Origin: Sulfurospirillaceae bacterium
GTDB taxonomy: Bacteria > Campylobacterota > Campylobacteria > Campylobacterales > Sulfurospirillaceae
Assembly (NCBI GenBank): GCA_028692875.1
Contig: JAQUWL010000018.1
Location: 1-43,724, forward strand
DNA: 43,724 nt
Reading direction: 5' to 3'
Positions within the stretch are counted from its first letter, which is position 1. Each line of letters opens with the position of its first letter. Below, in pieces: positions 1 to 7,472 of the stretch. Position numbers and translations under genes: made by a program. The notes under the pieces were generated by a model. It worked only from the letters and a program-made list of their open reading frames with translations. It was not told the DNA's origin and did no database searches.

Positions 1-76
1 AATCAACCGCATTGTCAATATAGCCCTTGATAGAGTCTGTTAAGTCAAATTGTTTGCCTACTATACTTGTGTTCAT
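1..76 (-). CDS. hpf: Ribosome hibernation promoting factor (HPF/RaiA family), N-terminal part
   Basis: Only the first 25 codons lie in the window; the rest is beyond position 1. The reading begins MNTSIVGKQFDLTDSIKGYI, which is the start of the S30AE (HPF/YfiA) fold: a first beta strand, the G-x-x-F-x-L-T-D turn, then helix 1. These proteins bind the 30S decoding centre and drive inactive 70S or 100S ribosomes under stress. The ATG at 74-76 is preceded on the minus strand by a strong AAGGAGA-type ribosome binding site at about 80-88. The leader carries a perfect inverted repeat (93-111). The call rests on a short stretch, but the family start is characteristic. Confidence 0.75.
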   Translation of the reverse strand, partial: MNTSIVGKQFDLTDSIKGYIDNAVD

Positions 77-166: not shown

Positions 167-607
167 TTATGGCTTTTGGATAGTGCGTCTGTGAAGGCGA
201 ATGGGCTCATTTGAGATAGCAGGATTGGTGCTTACAAGCGTGTCGATAATCACAGTTCTATTTGAGTCCGCAGTGGCTATATCACCACCAAGTTGTACAC
301 ATCCAGCAGGAAGTCCGCTACCGATATACATGATAGAGATATTGGCTTCATGCGTCCAATTTGCAAGCTCTGGATAATACAAATTGATACTATTTAGACA
401 ACCTGTAGTTGCATTGACTTCGTGTCCGCTACTTGCAAGAAGTGCGTATTCGGTGGCACTTTTTGCAAGTAGTTCTGCTTGAGATTTAAGGAAAATATCT
501 CCTGTTTGTTTTGCTGTTTGTGAGGACAATGCTATGGATAGTGCCGAGATGGTTGCCACCAAAATCAAAAAAACCATCGCCGTAATGAGTGAAAAACCTT
601 TTCGCAT
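167..607 (-). CDS. Prepilin-like protein (PilX/GspK/MshP-like), lacks Glu5
   Basis: A 146-residue protein with a type IV prepilin leader: a short basic MRKG followed by FSLITAMVFLILVATISALS, the site where prepilin peptidase would cut after Gly4. The mature protein has Thr rather than Glu at position 5, a feature of minor pseudopilins of the GspK/PilX class that sit at the pilus tip. The hydrophobic helix is followed by an about 100-residue periplasmic domain with a likely Cys pair. It is the last gene of the prepilin operon, and its ATG overlaps the previous stop (TAATG at 605-609), implying translational coupling. Probable role: minor pilin in a type IV pilus or MSHA-like system. The subtype is inferred from gene position and the missing Glu5, not from clear domain similarity. 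Confidence 0.7.
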   Translation of the reverse strand: MRKGFSLITAMVFLILVATISALSIALSSQTAKQTGDIFLKSQAELLAKSATEYALLASSGHEVNATTGCLNSINLYYPELANWTHEANISIMYIGSGLPAGCVQLGGDIATADSNRTVIIDTLVSTNPAISNEPIRLHRRTIQKP

Positions 608-1530
608 TAGTAGACCACCTTTTCTTTACAAAACGAAAAATCAGAATCCGTCGCAGTGTTGAAATTGCTACGATTTGCATCACTAATGCAGAGTTTTAGA
701 CGAATCGTATCGCCTATTTGGGTAAAGCGAAAAGTACTGACATGTTCTGCCAAAATAGATGTTGTGCCATCATTGAAAGTTTCATTTTCCCAAGGCTGGT
801 AGTTATAAACAAGTGTCAAGTTAAAATCATCTGCACCACCAACAGGAACGATAGCGTAAGCACTCCATGCAAGGTTGTATTGCTCGTAAATCTCATTTAT
901 ATCGACATTTGCGGTTGGCTCTATAAACTCCAGCACATCTACGCCGTTTAGCTGAACTGCATGTGTATAGTTGCCATCTGCACCACTCCAGCCGTATTGA
1001 GCGATGTCGTAAGAGCTTTTGCCTTTAAAGATGAGTGCGGGGCTTTGAGCTCCAGCGTTGAGTGATACAGCTCCATCCGAGAGTGCATTGATAGTATTTT
1101 CAGCAAAATCTAGTCTGCTTCCTGGTGTGCTTATGCGAGGAGGCACAGCAGTCCTATCCGTGTTGGCACTATCCAAATCCACAAATCCGCTCCATCCAGG
1201 AAGTCCATTTTCTCCTAAAAACCCGTCATTGTCTTTGCCTATCCACTCAAGTATCTGATAGGTTGCATCTGCGTTTGGAAGCGGAACGTAGTGCAAGATG
1301 TTTCCATCGTTTATCCTGCCTATAACACTATCTTTTATGCGATGTTGAAGGCGGTTGGCTATTTGGTCAAGAACAAGTTCTGTTTGGGATTGAAGACGCT
1401 CAATCGAGCGAGCTTTCATATAGTTTTCATATAGTTTAACGATGATATCCGCACCTATACTTGCAACTATGCCAAGTACGACGATAACCATCACTAGCTC
1501 TATCATTGTAAATGCTTTTTTCATTACCAT
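607..1530 (-). CDS. Prepilin-like protein (PilW/GspJ/MshO-like)
   Basis: A 307-residue protein with a clear class III prepilin signal: MKKA then FTMIELVMVIVVLGIVASIG, with Glu5 of the mature sequence and the usual hydrophobic helix. The processed residue before the cut is Ala rather than Gly, which prepilin peptidases tolerate. The long C-terminal domain (residues about 40-307) is rich in Asn, Asp and Gly, as in PilW/GspJ-type minor pilins. The annotated start gives MVMKK; the internal ATG two codons later would leave the leader intact. The start overlaps the end of the preceding prepilin gene by 7 bp and the stop overlaps the next ATG, so all three prepilin genes are coupled. Confidence 0.75.
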   Translation of the reverse strand: MVMKKAFTMIELVMVIVVLGIVASIGADIIVKLYENYMKARSIERLQSQTELVLDQIANRLQHRIKDSVIGRINDGNILHYVPLPNADATYQILEWIGKDNDGFLGENGLPGWSGFVDLDSANTDRTAVPPRISTPGSRLDFAENTINALSDGAVSLNAGAQSPALIFKGKSSYDIAQYGWSGADGNYTHAVQLNGVDVLEFIEPTANVDINEIYEQYNLAWSAYAIVPVGGADDFNLTLVYNYQPWENETFNDGTTSILAEHVSTFRFTQIGDTIRLKLCISDANRSNFNTATDSDFSFCKEKVVY

Positions 1531-2207
1531 GCCCCCTCTCGCTTCAAGAGTTCACTCTCTCCGATGTTGCAACTGTATGCTCTAAGAACAAAGTTGCTTG
1601 CGTTGAGAGCAGGGTTTGTTGCGTTAACTTCCACCATTTTGATATTTGTTCGAGTACCCGCATTTACAGTGCCCAAAACAAAGTTGGTAATATTGTTGTC
1701 GCCATAGTTTGCATAAGCGTCCGATACGTATACCACTGTTGGTGTAAGTGATAGGTCTGAAAATTTATAATCAAAACCAGTATCTGCTGCTTCTGTATTT
1801 GCAAAAAGTGTTTGGGCGACATTGTGAAAATCGTCTATGTCATCCAAGTCTCCGCCATCAGCACCTAAAACAGTGCTGGAGGTGGCGAGGTTTGGAAAAA
1901 ACTTTCTTCGTTTGTCAGCGTTTACATGACCCGCTCTTTGAGTGGTGTTTACCTCTACATTTAGCTCCGCATCGCCAGTTGTAACCAAAACAGCACTTCT
2001 GTCGTTTTGAAGTGAGTTCTCATCCCACTCGTACGTCAATATATCGCCTATTTTGGTACGTGTTGCCAAGATAGCTTCTTGCTCCATCGCAAACTCAAGA
2101 TTGCTTTGGGTTTGAGTAAGCATCAAAGGTAGTGCCATAACAGCGATACCCATAACGACGATAGCCACGATGAGTTCTAGCAATGAAGAGCCGTTTCGCA
2201 TTACCAT
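1524..2207 (-). CDS. Prepilin-like protein (PilV/GspI/MshD-like)
   Basis: A 227-residue prepilin-like protein. The N-terminus MVMRNG precedes SSLLELIVAIVVMGIAVMAL, so cleavage after Gly would leave Glu at mature position 5, the residue needed for assembly into a pilus helix. The remaining about 190 residues form a periplasmic domain with no motif I recognise. It overlaps the 3' end of the giant secreted protein gene by 7 bp and the next prepilin gene by 7 bp. The likely role is as a minor pilin initiating or decorating a type IV-like pilus; assignment to PilV/GspI is by size and order only. Confidence 0.72.
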   Translation of the reverse strand: MVMRNGSSLLELIVAIVVMGIAVMALPLMLTQTQSNLEFAMEQEAILATRTKIGDILTYEWDENSLQNDRSAVLVTTGDAELNVEVNTTQRAGHVNADKRRKFFPNLATSSTVLGADGGDLDDIDDFHNVAQTLFANTEAADTGFDYKFSDLSLTPTVVYVSDAYANYGDNNITNFVLGTVNAGTRTNIKMVEVNATNPALNASNFVLRAYSCNIGESELLKREGAW

Positions 2208-5200
2208 TCCAACCTTCTGTTGCTTCGTTTTGATACGCTAGTGTTTGTATCGTCAATCGTTTGTCCTAGCTTGCCTTGTCCTGCCCAGTTTCCACTTTGT
2301 ATAAATTCAACCGTAAAATCATTGGTTGTCGCAAGCGGGTTGAATTGATTGAAAAGTAGATACTGTGCTGATGGTGTCATTTCAATCCTGTCGACATATG
2401 GCAAGGTTGGCGCATGTACGATCTGACTTTCGCTACCTGTTGTGATTACTGCCGTTGTTGATGTGTTGGCTCCACCACCTGCTCCAAATTCAACCAATGC
2501 TCTTGAGTTAAATGTTTGCACACTTCCTTCATTGAGCAATGTATGAAGAGTGTTTCTGTACCAATAGATGGAATCAATACTTTCTTGTGCTCCAGTAAAA
2601 TTTAGAGGAGTGTTTGTACTACAGTTTCTACAATACACTTCATAATATACTGTAGCAGTGCCTTCGTTTCCTTGAAAACGATAATCTGGCGCATGAACTC
2701 GACCATAATAGTGCGTCAAATTAGCATCAATCATCGTTAGATTGCCCTCTGTTGTATGATTATTCTTTAAATCTGCCTGCATCGTGCAATCTGCCGTTTT
2801 GTTGCTACATGTAGAGTTCAAATCGTTATATGAAACGATAATAGGATTTATCATAGTTGATATATTTCTATCAAAGTTGATGTTCAAGTCTATTCTCGTT
2901 GCACCATTCATTGTTTTTGTAAAATCTGCTTGAGGGATAACAATAGAGGTGTTTATGTCTCCTGGATTGTTTAAAGTCGGTGGAATTGTATCAATAATAT
3001 CATTGCTAGCGTTTCTATCAAAAAGGCGATATTGGTATGCTATCTCAGGAGTTCTTGAGAAGTTATGGTCAAGTGAAATATTGATATCTTTGGCAAAACA
3101 GTTTGTCACAAAGTTGGTTGTTGCTACATTGTTAAATCCCGCAGCAAAGATATCTCCTCTGAAGTGCATTGAGTGGTTTATATCCGCACTGTTGTTGATA
3201 TCGTTCATATATAGCCAGCCGTTATTGAAATTTATGTTTTGTGCAACCCCAAAAGATGGTGTAACTAGGTTCATAAATTTGTATGGATGTACAGTAACAT
3301 TGTAGTCACGGTATTTTAGATTTGAATCAAGATTGTTATGGTTATTTGAGGTAATGATACATCCATTTATGTTGGCAAGATTTGCTCCAGAGATAGAAGG
3401 AAGTGTTGCTGTTTGCTGAACGATTGAGCTATTTGATAGACAATCAAGCGCATTGCCAGAGCCTACAAAATAGTTTGTTACATTTGTGTATGAGCCATTT
3501 ATAAATGCACTTTTATGATGTGTCATCCTTGCTGGGTCATAGTCTACTACATTCCACTCTTTGTCTATCATTCCAAGCATATACTCTCCAACATTGCTAA
3601 TGTTTGCCTCTCCTGAAACAGTGCCATTTATCATGCTAAAAAGCAATGCTTTGCTGGTTAAATCATTACATGTGGCTGTTGGATTTATTATTGTAAGTGG
3701 TGGCGACCAGTTAAAAGAAATATTTCTATCATTTGTTAAAATCGGAGAGAAAAATGCGGTATAGCCAGAAGTTTTGTTATTGTCGTCGTGGTTGGTTGCG
3801 TTGATGTCAAATCTATAATCATACCCAGAGGCGATATTGACTTTTGCTGTATTTGGCGTGATAACGCCTGTTCTATCGTCCGCAAAACGACTTTGTTTTG
3901 TTTTGTCAGTTTGGTTTTGGTCTGTCAGCTTGATGTTAAAGCTTTCTGGTCTTGTCGCAAAGTTGTCGCGAGAACAGATGTTTATTGTGCTATAGCCCAA
4001 AATACACTCATGGCATGTGCTAAGAGTAAAAAAATCAACACCCGTTGTTCCTGCATTTCCACAAGCCACGGCAACTTGCATGGTTGTGCCATTGTTGTTA
4101 TGACCATAAGGAAACATTCGTACAGGCTGTTTGCATGTGCCGTAATCTTGTATAAGATTTGTAAAGTTAAGCATTTTATACTTGCCATTTGCTAATTTCT
4201 GATATTGGATAATACTGTCGTTTCCATCATTTCCAACATTTACTTGAATTCTAAAAGCAGTATTTTGGCGAGCTTCATCAAAATAATCTTTTTTGTTTTT
4301 TATTGAGATAGAACCCTCGGTAATGGCAGTTTGAAGTGCTGTTTCAAAATCCACTTGTGATTTTGCACCACTTGCGTCCATAAAAGGAACCCAAAATTTT
4401 TCGCTGATAGCACTGGAGGGCTCATCACAACTAGCTTTTGTGCTATGAAATTTTCCAGCATCTATAAGCTCAACTCCTACAACAGTAGATATGTTCATCT
4501 CTCTTATGTATGGAACTGGCGTACTATTGGCGTCATGTGCGGTTATCCAAAACTCTCCTGGTCTTCGTACAACTTGTGTGGGAATATTAAATTTTGGATA
4601 AGTGTCAGAACTATTGTAAATGCCTTTTGCGGAGACGTTAAAAATACCCCATTCTGGTTCGTATTTTTTGTTGTCGCCAGAACACATCGGTAGTTTTGTG
4701 CTTCCAATGTTGTGTGTATATGGAAGCGAGCCACCAGTCGAGAGAACAAGTGTATAGCTTATGTTTGCATCAAGTACCATGTCGATATTGCCAATGGATT
4801 GAGGTGTTAGAGCATAGTAGGTGTAAAAATACTCTTTTCCATAAATATTGCCGTGCGAAATATTTGATATATAAGAATCACTAACACTTAAGCTTGTGTC
4901 GGGAACATGTACTGGGATAACCTCGTTTGGATGTGTAAGATAGACACTGTTTCTCTTGTAAATAGCTTGAGATGTGTTGATGTCTTTTATATTTAAAATC
5001 AAATTTTGTGCTTGAACGTCAGAGTCTTCTTCGTTTCTAATGTATAGAGTTACGTTGATATCGTCTGTTGGTGTTATTGTTCCTGTTATGCGTGGTTGTG
5101 AAGAGCCGTTATTGTCTGCTGTAAAATATCTTCCATTTTGTGAATAGGCGTAGTCATAGCAAAATTTTGGATCGTATAGTTCTGTTGAAAAGGCTATAAC

Positions 5201-6424
5201 TCCAGGGGTCGATTGGTCGCCGTTACTGTTGCTAAATGTAGCTTCTAACTTTATCGAGGTTGTTGTTTGTCTGTTTGTCATATAAGAAGATACATCGTAG
5301 ATATCCAAATCCATTCCAGGGTAGTATGTGATGGCACCGTTGAGTGCAACGCCCTTATCTGAAACTGTGCCATTAAATGGATTGTTTACTGGATTTAATC
5401 CATTGGAAACAGCTGTGTAGGTGTAGCTATTGTTTGCATTTTGTATGTAAAATGCATCTCTTTCTATCTTTTTTTCTCCACCTGAAGCATAAAAAAGCAT
5501 CTGAGAATTTACAGAATTGCTATTTGGAGTGAGAAAATTAGTTATAGGAACAGTTACGTTAAAGATTTCATATCCTGCTATTGGCAATGGAAACATCGCA
5601 TCAAAACCGTGATTTACTTGAATATTTTTTAATTTTGCAGTTACTGGAATATTATTATCAGGATATTTGTAGACAACAACCAAAGACCAGTTTCCCCAAA
5701 AACCAATTTTTAAACCATTGTACTCAGCTCCAGGCCCTAAATAAAAATAGGAGTACCAATCAGCTCCATTGTTGGCTTTTATGTTTCCAACGGTTACTGA
5801 CTGAGAAACACCAGCCACAAGATGGCTTTTGAGAAGTGTCGTGACATTTTTAAAGCCTTGATAAAAAGAGCGATATCCTCCGCCATTTCCTGTTCCGTCT
5901 CCCCAAAAATCGTGATACCAAACAGTATCTGCTGTTATGGCACTTGAATTTCCATCTGGCCATATTGCATTGATTTGATTTCTGTTCGCAATCATAGTTG
6001 ATGTGCCGTAGTTTGCAGCGTTAGTTCCAGCAATATGTCCTTGCCAGTAAAGCCCAGCCCAAATAATCTCATTTGAAGAGACGCCAGATGGGAGTGTTAG
6101 TGTTGCTGAGGCTGAATTTAGTGCGATGGATGCAGCTTCGTTTTTATATATAAGGTTCGAGTCGTATAGATATCCCGTGTAGTTGTTGTTGCATGCTCCA
6201 CCATTGTTTTCACAAAGAACTGAGTTTCCAGTCGCAATAAAATCTCCATAAAGATTGAGGGAATTTCCAGAGGGAAGTGCTGAAACAAATGGATTTTGAT
6301 GACTTAAACTGCTACCTTTGCCAAAAGCTAAAGTTGTAAAAAAAAGAGCAAAAACAACAACAAAAGCAAAAGGAGACAGGTTACTTTTTAAATTGGTTTT
6401 AAATTGATTTAGTAAGCTATACAT
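2201..6424 (-). CDS. Giant secreted protein at head of prepilin operon (possible pilus-associated adhesin)
   Basis: A 1407-residue protein with a long N-terminal signal region (about residues 17-36, PFAFVVVFALFFTTLAFG) and no later membrane span that I can see. The rest is rich in Asn, Thr, Ser and Asp, with scattered Cys pairs and beta-strand-like segments, as in extracellular adhesins. No catalytic motif is visible. Size and partners recall the large tip or surface proteins encoded with minor pilins (PilY1 with PilV/W/X, MshQ with MshO/P). That comparison is by architecture; I do not recognise the domain. The start codon lies inside a TACATGTA word (6420-6427), and a purine-rich AAAGGGGGC follows the upstream hepT stop by a few bases. 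The gene is only 33 bp from hepT, so it may be read from upstream. Confidence 0.65.
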   Translation of the reverse strand: MYSLLNQFKTNLKSNLSPFAFVVVFALFFTTLAFGKGSSLSHQNPFVSALPSGNSLNLYGDFIATGNSVLCENNGGACNNNYTGYLYDSNLIYKNEAASIALNSASATLTLPSGVSSNEIIWAGLYWQGHIAGTNAANYGTSTMIANRNQINAIWPDGNSSAITADTVWYHDFWGDGTGNGGGYRSFYQGFKNVTTLLKSHLVAGVSQSVTVGNIKANNGADWYSYFYLGPGAEYNGLKIGFWGNWSLVVVYKYPDNNIPVTAKLKNIQVNHGFDAMFPLPIAGYEIFNVTVPITNFLTPNSNSVNSQMLFYASGGEKKIERDAFYIQNANNSYTYTAVSNGLNPVNNPFNGTVSDKGVALNGAITYYPGMDLDIYDVSSYMTNRQTTTSIKLEATFSNSNGDQSTPGVIAFSTELYDPKFCYDYAYSQNGRYFTADNNGSSQPRITGTITPTDDINVTLYIRNEEDSDVQAQNLILNIKDINTSQAIYKRNSVYLTHPNEVIPVHVPDTSLSVSDSYISNISHGNIYGKEYFYTYYALTPQSIGNIDMVLDANISYTLVLSTGGSLPYTHNIGSTKLPMCSGDNKKYEPEWGIFNVSAKGIYNSSDTYPKFNIPTQVVRRPGEFWITAHDANSTPVPYIREMNISTVVGVELIDAGKFHSTKASCDEPSSAISEKFWVPFMDASGAKSQVDFETALQTAITEGSISIKNKKDYFDEARQNTAFRIQVNVGNDGNDSIIQYQKLANGKYKMLNFTNLIQDYGTCKQPVRMFPYGHNNNGTTMQVAVACGNAGTTGVDFFTLSTCHECILGYSTINICSRDNFATRPESFNIKLTDQNQTDKTKQSRFADDRTGVITPNTAKVNIASGYDYRFDINATNHDDNNKTSGYTAFFSPILTNDRNISFNWSPPLTIINPTATCNDLTSKALLFSMINGTVSGEANISNVGEYMLGMIDKEWNVVDYDPARMTHHKSAFINGSYTNVTNYFVGSGNALDCLSNSSIVQQTATLPSISGANLANINGCIITSNNHNNLDSNLKYRDYNVTVHPYKFMNLVTPSFGVAQNINFNNGWLYMNDINNSADINHSMHFRGDIFAAGFNNVATTNFVTNCFAKDINISLDHNFSRTPEIAYQYRLFDRNASNDIIDTIPPTLNNPGDINTSIVIPQADFTKTMNGATRIDLNINFDRNISTMINPIIVSYNDLNSTCSNKTADCTMQADLKNNHTTEGNLTMIDANLTHYYGRVHAPDYRFQGNEGTATVYYEVYCRNCSTNTPLNFTGAQESIDSIYWYRNTLHTLLNEGSVQTFNSRALVEFGAGGGANTSTTAVITTGSESQIVHAPTLPYVDRIEMTPSAQYLLFNQFNPLATTNDFTVEFIQSGNWAGQGKLGQTIDDTNTSVSKRSNRRLEW

Positions 6425-6457: not shown

Positions 6458-6799
6458 TTAATTCTTAGTTTCTAAAGATTTAACAGCTGTAATTAGAGCT
6501 TCTAACTCTAATTGTGTTAAGTCCCAAATTATTTTAGAATCGACCCCAAAATACTCATGAATAATAAAATTTCTAAAATCTTTTATCATCCTCCAGGGAT
6601 ATTTTGGATTTTCTTCTTCCAGTAATTCTATCACATGTGAAACAGCTTCTCCTATGATAATATATTCTCGAATTGTTGCACTGTATGTTTTTCTATCGTT
6701 GCAAAATGTTTCAAAATCCATATCGCTAACAAATTCTTGAATAGCACAAGCTGAATCGAGAATATCATCTAAATAAAGTTTCGCATCTCTTTTAGGCAT
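6458..6799 (-). CDS. hepT: HepT-like HEPN ribonuclease toxin
   Basis: A 113-residue all-alpha protein of the HepT/DUF86 family. The HEPN ribonuclease motif R-X4-H-X-Y is intact: Arg76, His81 and Tyr83 in RNFIIHEYFG. Known HepT toxins cleave RNA and are silenced when the partner MntA adds AMP groups to the Tyr of this motif. The gene overlaps mntA by 8 bp, with the antitoxin gene first, and follows fliW in the same direction. The toxin-antitoxin role follows from family knowledge. With all active residues present, nothing suggests decay. Confidence 0.85.
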   Translation of the reverse strand: MPKRDAKLYLDDILDSACAIQEFVSDMDFETFCNDRKTYSATIREYIIIGEAVSHVIELLEEENPKYPWRMIKDFRNFIIHEYFGVDSKIIWDLTQLELEALITAVKSLETKN

Positions 6800-7082
6800 A
6801 AATAATTTCTTGTTGTATATATTTTCTAGCTACCGGTTTAAGATGACTTTCTATTCCTAAATCGACATTTTTATGAAGATGGTCTTCAATAAAATACTTT
6901 AAGCCAAAAAAACTTCTAAATTTATTACTACTTTCTATTTCTACTGCTATATCTATGTCGCTATCGTCGCGTTGTTCGTTTCTTGCATAACTACCAAATA
7001 GACCTATTTTTGTTACACCATATTTTTCTTGAATCTCTTGTTTATGTTGTTTTAAAAAGTCTAAAATCATAGTTTTTGTCAT
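6792..7082 (-). CDS. mntA: MntA-like minimal nucleotidyltransferase antitoxin
   Basis: A 96-residue minimal nucleotidyltransferase. The signature GS-X10-D-X-D is complete: Gly30-Ser31 and Asp42/Asp44 in GSYARNEQRDDSDIDIAVE, with a further acidic residue near NVDLGIE as the third metal ligand. Proteins of this type adenylylate HepT and neutralise it. It starts 3 bp after the fliW stop and overlaps hepT by 8 bp, so the pair is translated together. The TA cassette appears inserted just downstream of fliW. Function by family; not distinguishable from other MNT-domain proteins except through its HEPN neighbour. Confidence 0.85.
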   Translation of the reverse strand: MTKTMILDFLKQHKQEIQEKYGVTKIGLFGSYARNEQRDDSDIDIAVEIESSNKFRSFFGLKYFIEDHLHKNVDLGIESHLKPVARKYIQQEIIYA

Positions 7083-7085
7083 TTT

Positions 7086-7472
7086 TTATTCTTTGTTCAA
7101 ATAATTTGAAATATTCTCCATTAAACCAAAATCAGCATACTTTCCACTGTCTAAAATAACTTGAGCCACGGTGCCGTTGTCTGTGTTGAAAATCAGAGGG
7201 GCTATAAAGTTAACAGTCGATGCTTCAATAGGGGTTGCAATAATCATGATGTTAAGGATGAGAATATTCGTTTTTTCATTAATCTCCAAAAGAGCTTTAA
7301 AATATTCTGGGATTTCAAAGGCATAATTGCGAATCATGAAAGGGTTGATGAGTGTAAAGGTTGTACTGTCTGATTTGGAGACCAATCTTACAAAAAATTC
7401 ATCAATCTTTTCAACTTCAACCTCTTTTATAGCTTCAAATCCTAGGATGGGTGTCTTCACGCTGAAAACCAT
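7086..7472 (-). CDS. fliW: Flagellar assembly factor FliW
   Basis: A 128-residue protein matching epsilonproteobacterial FliW: the N-terminal VKTPILGFE segment, the FTLINPF strand in the middle, and the NFIAPLIFN motif near residue 90. FliW binds flagellin and relieves CsrA repression of flagellin translation, coupling export to synthesis. No csrA is adjacent. The ATG at 7470-7472 follows an AAAGGA site on the minus strand. It is the first gene of the minus-strand run that continues into mntA-hepT, and is divergent from bamD. Confidence 0.88.
   Translation of the reverse strand: MVFSVKTPILGFEAIKEVEVEKIDEFFVRLVSKSDSTTFTLINPFMIRNYAFEIPEYFKALLEINEKTNILILNIMIIATPIEASTVNFIAPLIFNTDNGTVAQVILDSGKYADFGLMENISNYLNKE

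Follow-up and report, generated by a model that had tools for sequence, protein, structure and literature searches.

What are three minor prepilins and a giant secreted protein doing together on a contig that carries neither an assembly ATPase nor a secretin? The question is raised by a stretch of 43,724 nt, called the window below, which is contig JAQUWL010000018.1 (C25) of assembly GCA_028692875.1, a Sulfurospirillaceae bacterium. Throughout, C denotes contigs of the window genome, G the genomes compared and L the loci compared. A first-pass annotation made from the sequence alone had described the four genes as a compact operon and likened them to tip-initiating modules of type IV pili. Our analysis makes it probable that the operon encodes the tip of a pilus of the type IVa class resembling the mannose-sensitive haemagglutinin (MSHA) pilus. 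This tip would consist of minor pilins and an adhesin, be assembled by a machine encoded on contig C30 and be N-glycosylated.

A conserved four-gene operon

An open reading frame (ORF) check of the window gave four genes, all on the minus strand: the giant (2201–6424, 1407 aa) and the genes that we call V (1524–2207, 227 aa), W (607–1530, 307 aa) and X (167–607, 146 aa). The overlaps are 7 bp between giant and V, 7 bp between V and W and 1 bp between W and X, within the 1–7 bp stated in the first-pass annotation. The giant has a signal-peptide-like N-terminus, judged by eye, and is a putative MshQ-like, DUF6701-related tip adhesin (see below). V and W are minor prepilins with Glu5 present. Both matched the N_methyl family (V: E 9e-4, W: E 8e-4), with 22.4 and 23.3 bits, above the cut-off, in the genome search; W also matched TIGR02532 (4.6e-6). 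X holds the GspK/PilX/MshP-like position; the usual Glu5 is absent from its N-terminus, which gave weak matches only, to GspK and ComGF. The description as three minor prepilins plus a secreted protein of 1407 residues was thereby confirmed, with V and W matching the prepilin motif. Family searches found no N_methyl gene besides V and W on the operon contig, and no T2SSE or secretin gene; the earlier remark that assembly ATPase and secretin are missing nearby therefore holds for the contig, while the machinery sits elsewhere in the genome. A scan of the operon for promoters and terminators gave signals not above chance level.

The four-gene operon is real, far beyond chance: a giant followed by all three prepilin orthologues was found in 28 of the 33 family regions fetched. 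Of the other five regions, four run into a contig end and the fifth (L057) holds a stand-alone second giant. We also scanned named contigs and analysed the best 80 of 316 related stretches. V lay ahead of W in 77 of these (the remaining three were at contig starts) and X followed W in 78. The ORF abutting V was readable in 69 and was a giant in 61 and something else in eight; 60 of the 61 giants end in Trp. This gene order is found in Sulfurospirillum, Sulfurimonas, Sulfurovum and Arcobacter, among others. The operon usually has lon–bamD, often with fliW, on one side and hpf on the other, and these flanks recur. A profile of the W prepilin (E ≤1e-20) matched 193 of 397 phylum genomes, a count that includes the paralogous form on C2 described below. 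The tip module is thus conserved as a locus of its own in Campylobacterota, and the idea that it is lineage-specific was not borne out.

The giant is related to DUF6701 proteins

Pfam DUF6701 matched proteins in 8 of 200 phylum genomes, and one of them is the giant at the same locus in G043 (E 5.2e-24). Among 28 C-terminal halves of giants scanned, two had a DUF6701 match. The window giant and the DUF6701-positive giant of L086 are 29% identical across 1301 aligned residues (E 1.7e-120). A profile of the window giant and six close relatives, compared with DUF6701-positive proteins of other families, gave a probability of 99.9 (E 4e-34); a Lon profile used as control gave 0.1. This sequence kinship makes the giant a divergent member of the DUF6701 family, which also contains Vibrio MshQ. 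The Neisseria_PilC (PilY1) family of Pfam gave no match in the window giant or in the 28 C-terminal parts scanned, in agreement with the earlier remark that no PilY1 domain is recognisable. A PilY1 identity is thus not supported by Pfam, and the C-terminal structure model was too weak to judge by fold whether a C-terminal beta-propeller of the PilY1 type is present. The proposed likeness to MshO/P/Q holds up, supported by the DUF6701 kinship. A PDB sequence search with the giant returned no match.

We divided the giant into an N-terminal head (aa 1–425; 5150–6424), which includes the signal-peptide-like start, a middle (aa 426–1040; 3305–5149) and a C-terminal module (aa 1041–1407; 2204–3304), the best conserved part and a putative anchor to the minor pilins. 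A structure model of aa 45–596 reached a predicted local distance difference test score (pLDDT) of 78 overall. In a VIA structure comparison of the N-terminal half, aa 417–574 (4703–5176) appeared Ig-like, similar to domains that form the stalks of adhesins and pilins in Gram-positive bacteria (Z up to 10.5, root-mean-square deviation 2.8 over 131 residues). The head itself was unmatched in this comparison, and Foldseek gave only low TM-scores for the N-terminal half. The fold search suggested in the first-pass annotation thus points to an Ig-like, adhesin-type domain; most of the protein had no fold match, and no unrelated family was indicated. The C-terminal module ends in Trp. We considered whether this residue could be a by-product of the ATGGTAA overlap and rejected the idea because Trp is also the last residue in 18 of the 19 giants that lack this overlap.

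Complete giants of the named set (42 proteins) range from 711 to 2706 aa. Larger ones, of >3200 and >3700 aa, lie in two family genomes, at L054 (7167–17000) and L061 (6693–17999), within open frames of 4065 and 4024 aa.

A pilus machine encoded on another contig

Contig C30 (L033) carries PilM/N/P-like genes, a secretin, an ExeA-like ATPase, a TPR protein, an assembly ATPase and a PilC-like protein. The secretin scored above the curated MshL cut-off (TIGR02519: 262 versus 250.2 bits) and far below that of GspD (165 versus 351). An MshEN domain was detected on the ATPase (1.6e-15). The co-occurring machinery that the first-pass annotation had asked for is therefore present, as an MshL-type secretin with an MshEN ATPase. 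Elsewhere in the genome we found a prepilin peptidase gene (C1), PilT-like ATPases on C10 and C29, which were named by size and similarity and not by a family test, and ComEC. Together with the DUF6701 kinship of the giant, the MSHA-type machine upholds the proposal of a tip-initiating module: the genome has a pilus machine, and the giant was not placed in an unrelated family.

The tip genes are not part of the machine locus, the operon being on C25 and the machine on C30. Operon and machine are likewise separate loci in genomes that consist of a single contig, for example G012 and G021. The genome has in addition a second, paralogous pilus-type machine on C2 and C18, with its own giant of 1267 aa and four prepilins; C2 and C18 would together form one locus. 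The giant of this second system (L030 7173–18335, L032 1–3680) has 15 copies of the D/E-x-N-x-S/T motif discussed below and ends in -FR, not in -W.

For the pairing of operon and machine in the family, C30-type secretins were counted at ≥55% identity and C2-type secretins at ≥60%. The giant was found in 36 of 44 family genomes, in some as fragments; a W profile, applied to 11 genomes, added G005 (a fragment) and G036, so that giant or W was present in 38. C30-type secretins were likewise found in 36 of the 44 (two as fragments). A search for the C30-type ATPase in 14 genomes added five more, one with an internal stop and one partial, which brings the machine to 41 of 44. The C2-type secretin was present in only 16, in one of them as two fragments. 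The operon and a C30-type machine without the C2 type occurred together in 22 genomes, eight of which are single contigs (G012, G013, G014, G016, G017, G020, G021 and G022). Two culturable relatives, Sulfurospirillum cavolei and S. diekertiae, have the operon and gave no match to the C2-type secretin. One genome (G026) had neither operon nor machine.

Sequons are concentrated in the putative tip proteins

The motif D/E-x-N-x-S/T (sequon) is described as the PglB acceptor motif in the portions of PMC4894442 and PMC6478998 available to us. We counted sequons and derived expected numbers from shuffled sequences. The window giant has 25 sequons versus 2.3 expected, and none of the reversed motif (2.2 expected). 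The head contains one, the middle 12 and the C-terminal module 12. V, W and X have three each versus 0.1–0.4 expected; W also has two reversed motifs versus 0.3. W carries a conserved DFNLT sequon; one W sequon is present in 12 of 14 orthologues, and two X sequons are common to all 14.

The excess is not confined to the window. In 56 distinct giants we counted 1213 sequons versus 172 expected, and z was above 3 in 49 of them. The ratio of observed to expected rises along the giants from 2.1 in the head to 8.0 in the middle and 16.3 in the C-terminal part. We also ranked 758 mechanically called ORFs of at least 120 aa, drawn from 853,665 bases (44%) of the window genome. Of the eight ORFs with the highest sequon excess, seven encode one of the two giants or one of the minor prepilins that accompany them, and all sampled ORFs outside the window operon together have 193 sequons versus 186 expected. 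In our judgement the chances are even that N-glycosylation in free-living Campylobacterota acts foremost, and perhaps mainly, on type IV pilus tips. The giant would then be an exceptionally heavily N-glycosylated tip adhesin at a fixed locus, coated on stalk and anchor, with a bare head that is swapped like a cassette.

Seven of the 56 giants had no clear sequon excess (L137, L147, L148, L153, L156, L168 and L169), and six of these come from metagenome-assembled genomes of Campylobacteraceae. Low-sequon lineages might lack PglB, a simple prediction.

The head of the giant is exchanged between relatives

We gauged the divergence of relatives by the identity of Lon. Among the 107 pairs whose Lon proteins were ≥85% identical, heads had a median relative score of 0.06, compared with 0.35 for C-terminal parts. 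In L048 and L055 (G020 and G011), similarity of the heads was not detectable at a Lon identity of 95.4%. The C-terminal part varies too: between L050 and L067 (Lon 98.4%) the score was 0.94 for the head and 0.41 for the C-terminal part. These comparisons show that the head is exchanged between close relatives. In the N-terminal parts of 42 giants we found Calx-beta (11), DUF11 (8), LamG (1), CUB (1) and PPC (1) domains as well as cadherin-like and Ig-like domains; three of the 42 have choice-of-anchor L.

Covariation was examined in 20 taxa with nine primary tests, Lon serving as control. The C-terminal part of the giant covaried with W (r 0.26, p 0.0035) and with X (r 0.35, p 0.0015). None of the six tests of head and middle against the prepilins gave p<0.05; head–X came closest (r 0.21, p 0.0575). 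The covariation suggests docking through the C-terminus of the giant, with physical linkage as a confounder.

Proposed mechanism and alternatives

These observations are consistent with the following mechanism. V, W and X, processed by the prepilin peptidase encoded elsewhere, would be minor pilins that form an initiation complex. The giant would be the tip adhesin, its DUF6701-related C-terminal module with the Trp end docking on the minor pilins; an Ig-like stalk would come next, and the swappable N-terminal head would bind. The C30 machine would build the filament and drive the tip outwards, and the PilT-like ATPases could retract it. In the periplasm, a PglB-type enzyme would attach N-glycans to the minor pilins and to the giant, where stalk and anchor would be modified and the head left bare. 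The mineral binding mentioned in the first-pass annotation is not supported, and the evidence speaks neither for nor against it.

Several points weigh against this mechanism. The two prepilin genes on C17 are no more than candidates for the major pilin. The window giant itself has no Pfam match, and the model of its aa 590–1407 is poor (pLDDT 65), with a best VIA Z of 7.8, within the common background. V-W-X occurs without an adjacent giant in some lineages. A machine with no operon found is present in G007, G008 (100% complete), G023, G029 and G039 (99%), and an operon with no machine found in G004 and G031, both fragmented. Operon and C30-type machine are both near-universal in the family and their co-occurrence is not significant as such; the pairing therefore speaks for the dispensability of the C2 type and not for a statistical association. 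The covariation is modest, and V, the nearest gene, showed little of it with the C-terminal part (r 0.15, p 0.058). Motif searches of the 953,665 bases read (49% of the genome) did not reveal PglB, and the enzyme is therefore unproven in the window genome; self-made, non-validated regular expressions for PglC- and PglF-like proteins likewise gave no matches in the genome stretches read.

The four proteins could instead be the pseudopilin tip of a type II secretion system (T2SS) with a secreted substrate or cap. The I/J/K-like layout, the lack of Glu5 in X with its weak GspK match, and the C30 ATPase, which scores best against GspE though below the cut-off, would fit. However, the curated GspK model gave X 16.9 against a cut-off of 130, and the GspI and GspJ models were not listed for V or W. 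As the C30 secretin passes the MshL and not the GspD threshold, the giant is DUF6701-related, and a Gsp-like cluster in G037 (L092) lies apart from the operon of that genome, a T2SS seems highly unlikely. It is also distinctly unlikely that the operon serves the C2/C18 machine, or both machines. The two machines share a genome and could share minor pilins, but a giant and prepilins of its own accompany the C2 machine, and in 22 family genomes the operon and the C30-type machine occur without a C2-type secretin.

The first-pass annotation had mentioned a possible relevance to DNA uptake, and a DNA-uptake (competence) pilus with the giant as DNA receptor would be another explanation. Pilus tips bind DNA in other species, and ComEC is encoded in the window genome. 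Loss of N-glycosylation lowers competence in Campylobacter jejuni, according to the part of PMC6478998 available to us. We nevertheless consider this role unlikely: the head modules of relatives are of adhesin types, and because heads are exchanged between close relatives, variable surface ligands fit better than DNA. Moreover, there is a second pilus-type machine, and nothing assigns competence to either. As for the sequons, their excess could stem from polar beta strands with an outward-facing side, or from a Ca2+ motif, and not from N-glycosylation, because residues i, i+2 and i+4 lie on one strand face and the protein is beta-rich; the failure to find PglB would agree with this. Yet the reversed motif, which would occupy the same face, is depleted in the giants (103 versus 172 expected). 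The window giant has no excess of D/E-x-N lacking S/T (7; 9.9 expected) or of N-x-S/T lacking D/E (20; 22.9 expected), and X keeps its two sequons in all 14 orthologues. A strand-face or Ca2+ origin is thus improbable, and an N-glycosylated tip of an MSHA-like pilus remains our preferred reading.

Neighbouring genes and variant loci

In the window, the conserved upstream flank is fliW (7086–7472, minus strand). The downstream flank is the start of a gene (1–76, minus strand) that is presumably hpf, encoding the ribosome hibernation factor. Between giant and fliW, a pair of HepT-like and MntA-like toxin–antitoxin genes is inserted (6458–7082); its antitoxin also matches PADLOC PDC-S09. At the same place, L063 has a pair of similar size with one MntA-related member, and two genes of L053 give short MntA-like matches.

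Tandem giants, two before a single V-W-X set, occur in L155, L156 and L160, and the copies are 37–61% identical where aligned. Stand-alone giants without adjoining prepilins were seen in L082, L083, L086 and L089; they end in Trp and carry between 13 and 37 sequons. In L083, three giant-related ORFs lie side by side. In L124, L128, L132 and L138, V-W-X follows an LVIVD beta-propeller gene and not a giant (Pfam in the three tested). We considered these genes as a PilY1-type replacement and treated them as part of a different operon, because they lie downstream of a CusA-like transporter gene (named by eye) in L124, L128 and L138; L132 is cut.

Significance and comparison with known systems

Environmental Campylobacterota gain from this work a conserved candidate for surface attachment that is open to deletion tests. 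The proposal would also give N-glycosylation, a modification of ill-defined purpose in the phylum, a natural function. Testable predictions that follow from it are glycosites, swapping of the head and a pilus machine dedicated to this module. In the portions of the open-licence literature available to us, we found no description of the tip locus, the head exchange or the sequon excess.

Like the MSHA tip genes mshD/O/P/Q of Vibrio, the window operon combines minor prepilins with a large DUF6701-related secreted protein, and the genome likewise has an MshL-type secretin and an MshEN ATPase. Unlike in Vibrio, where mshQ is the last gene, the giant comes first. As with PilVWX–PilY1 of type IVa pili, three minor pilins accompany a large tip protein, which in the window lacks the Neisseria_PilC match. 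For MshQ, the part of PMC7096442 available to us uses the term putative adhesin and describes less MSHA on the surface when the protein is lost, an effect consistent with a tip role. Denise et al. (2019; PMC6668835), in the sections accessible to us, predict putative MSH systems in Epsilonproteobacteria with a model in which mshA, E, G, L and M are mandatory, and state that MSH loci are almost always single. The window tip operon differs from this usual arrangement in standing apart from the machine, and those sections do not describe such a remote tip module. The window giant shares its acceptor motif with the PglB N-glycoproteins of Campylobacter. It differs from them in number: CmeA, CmeB and CmeC have two sequons each, as given in the accessible part of PMC6478998, whereas the giant has 25 in one protein.

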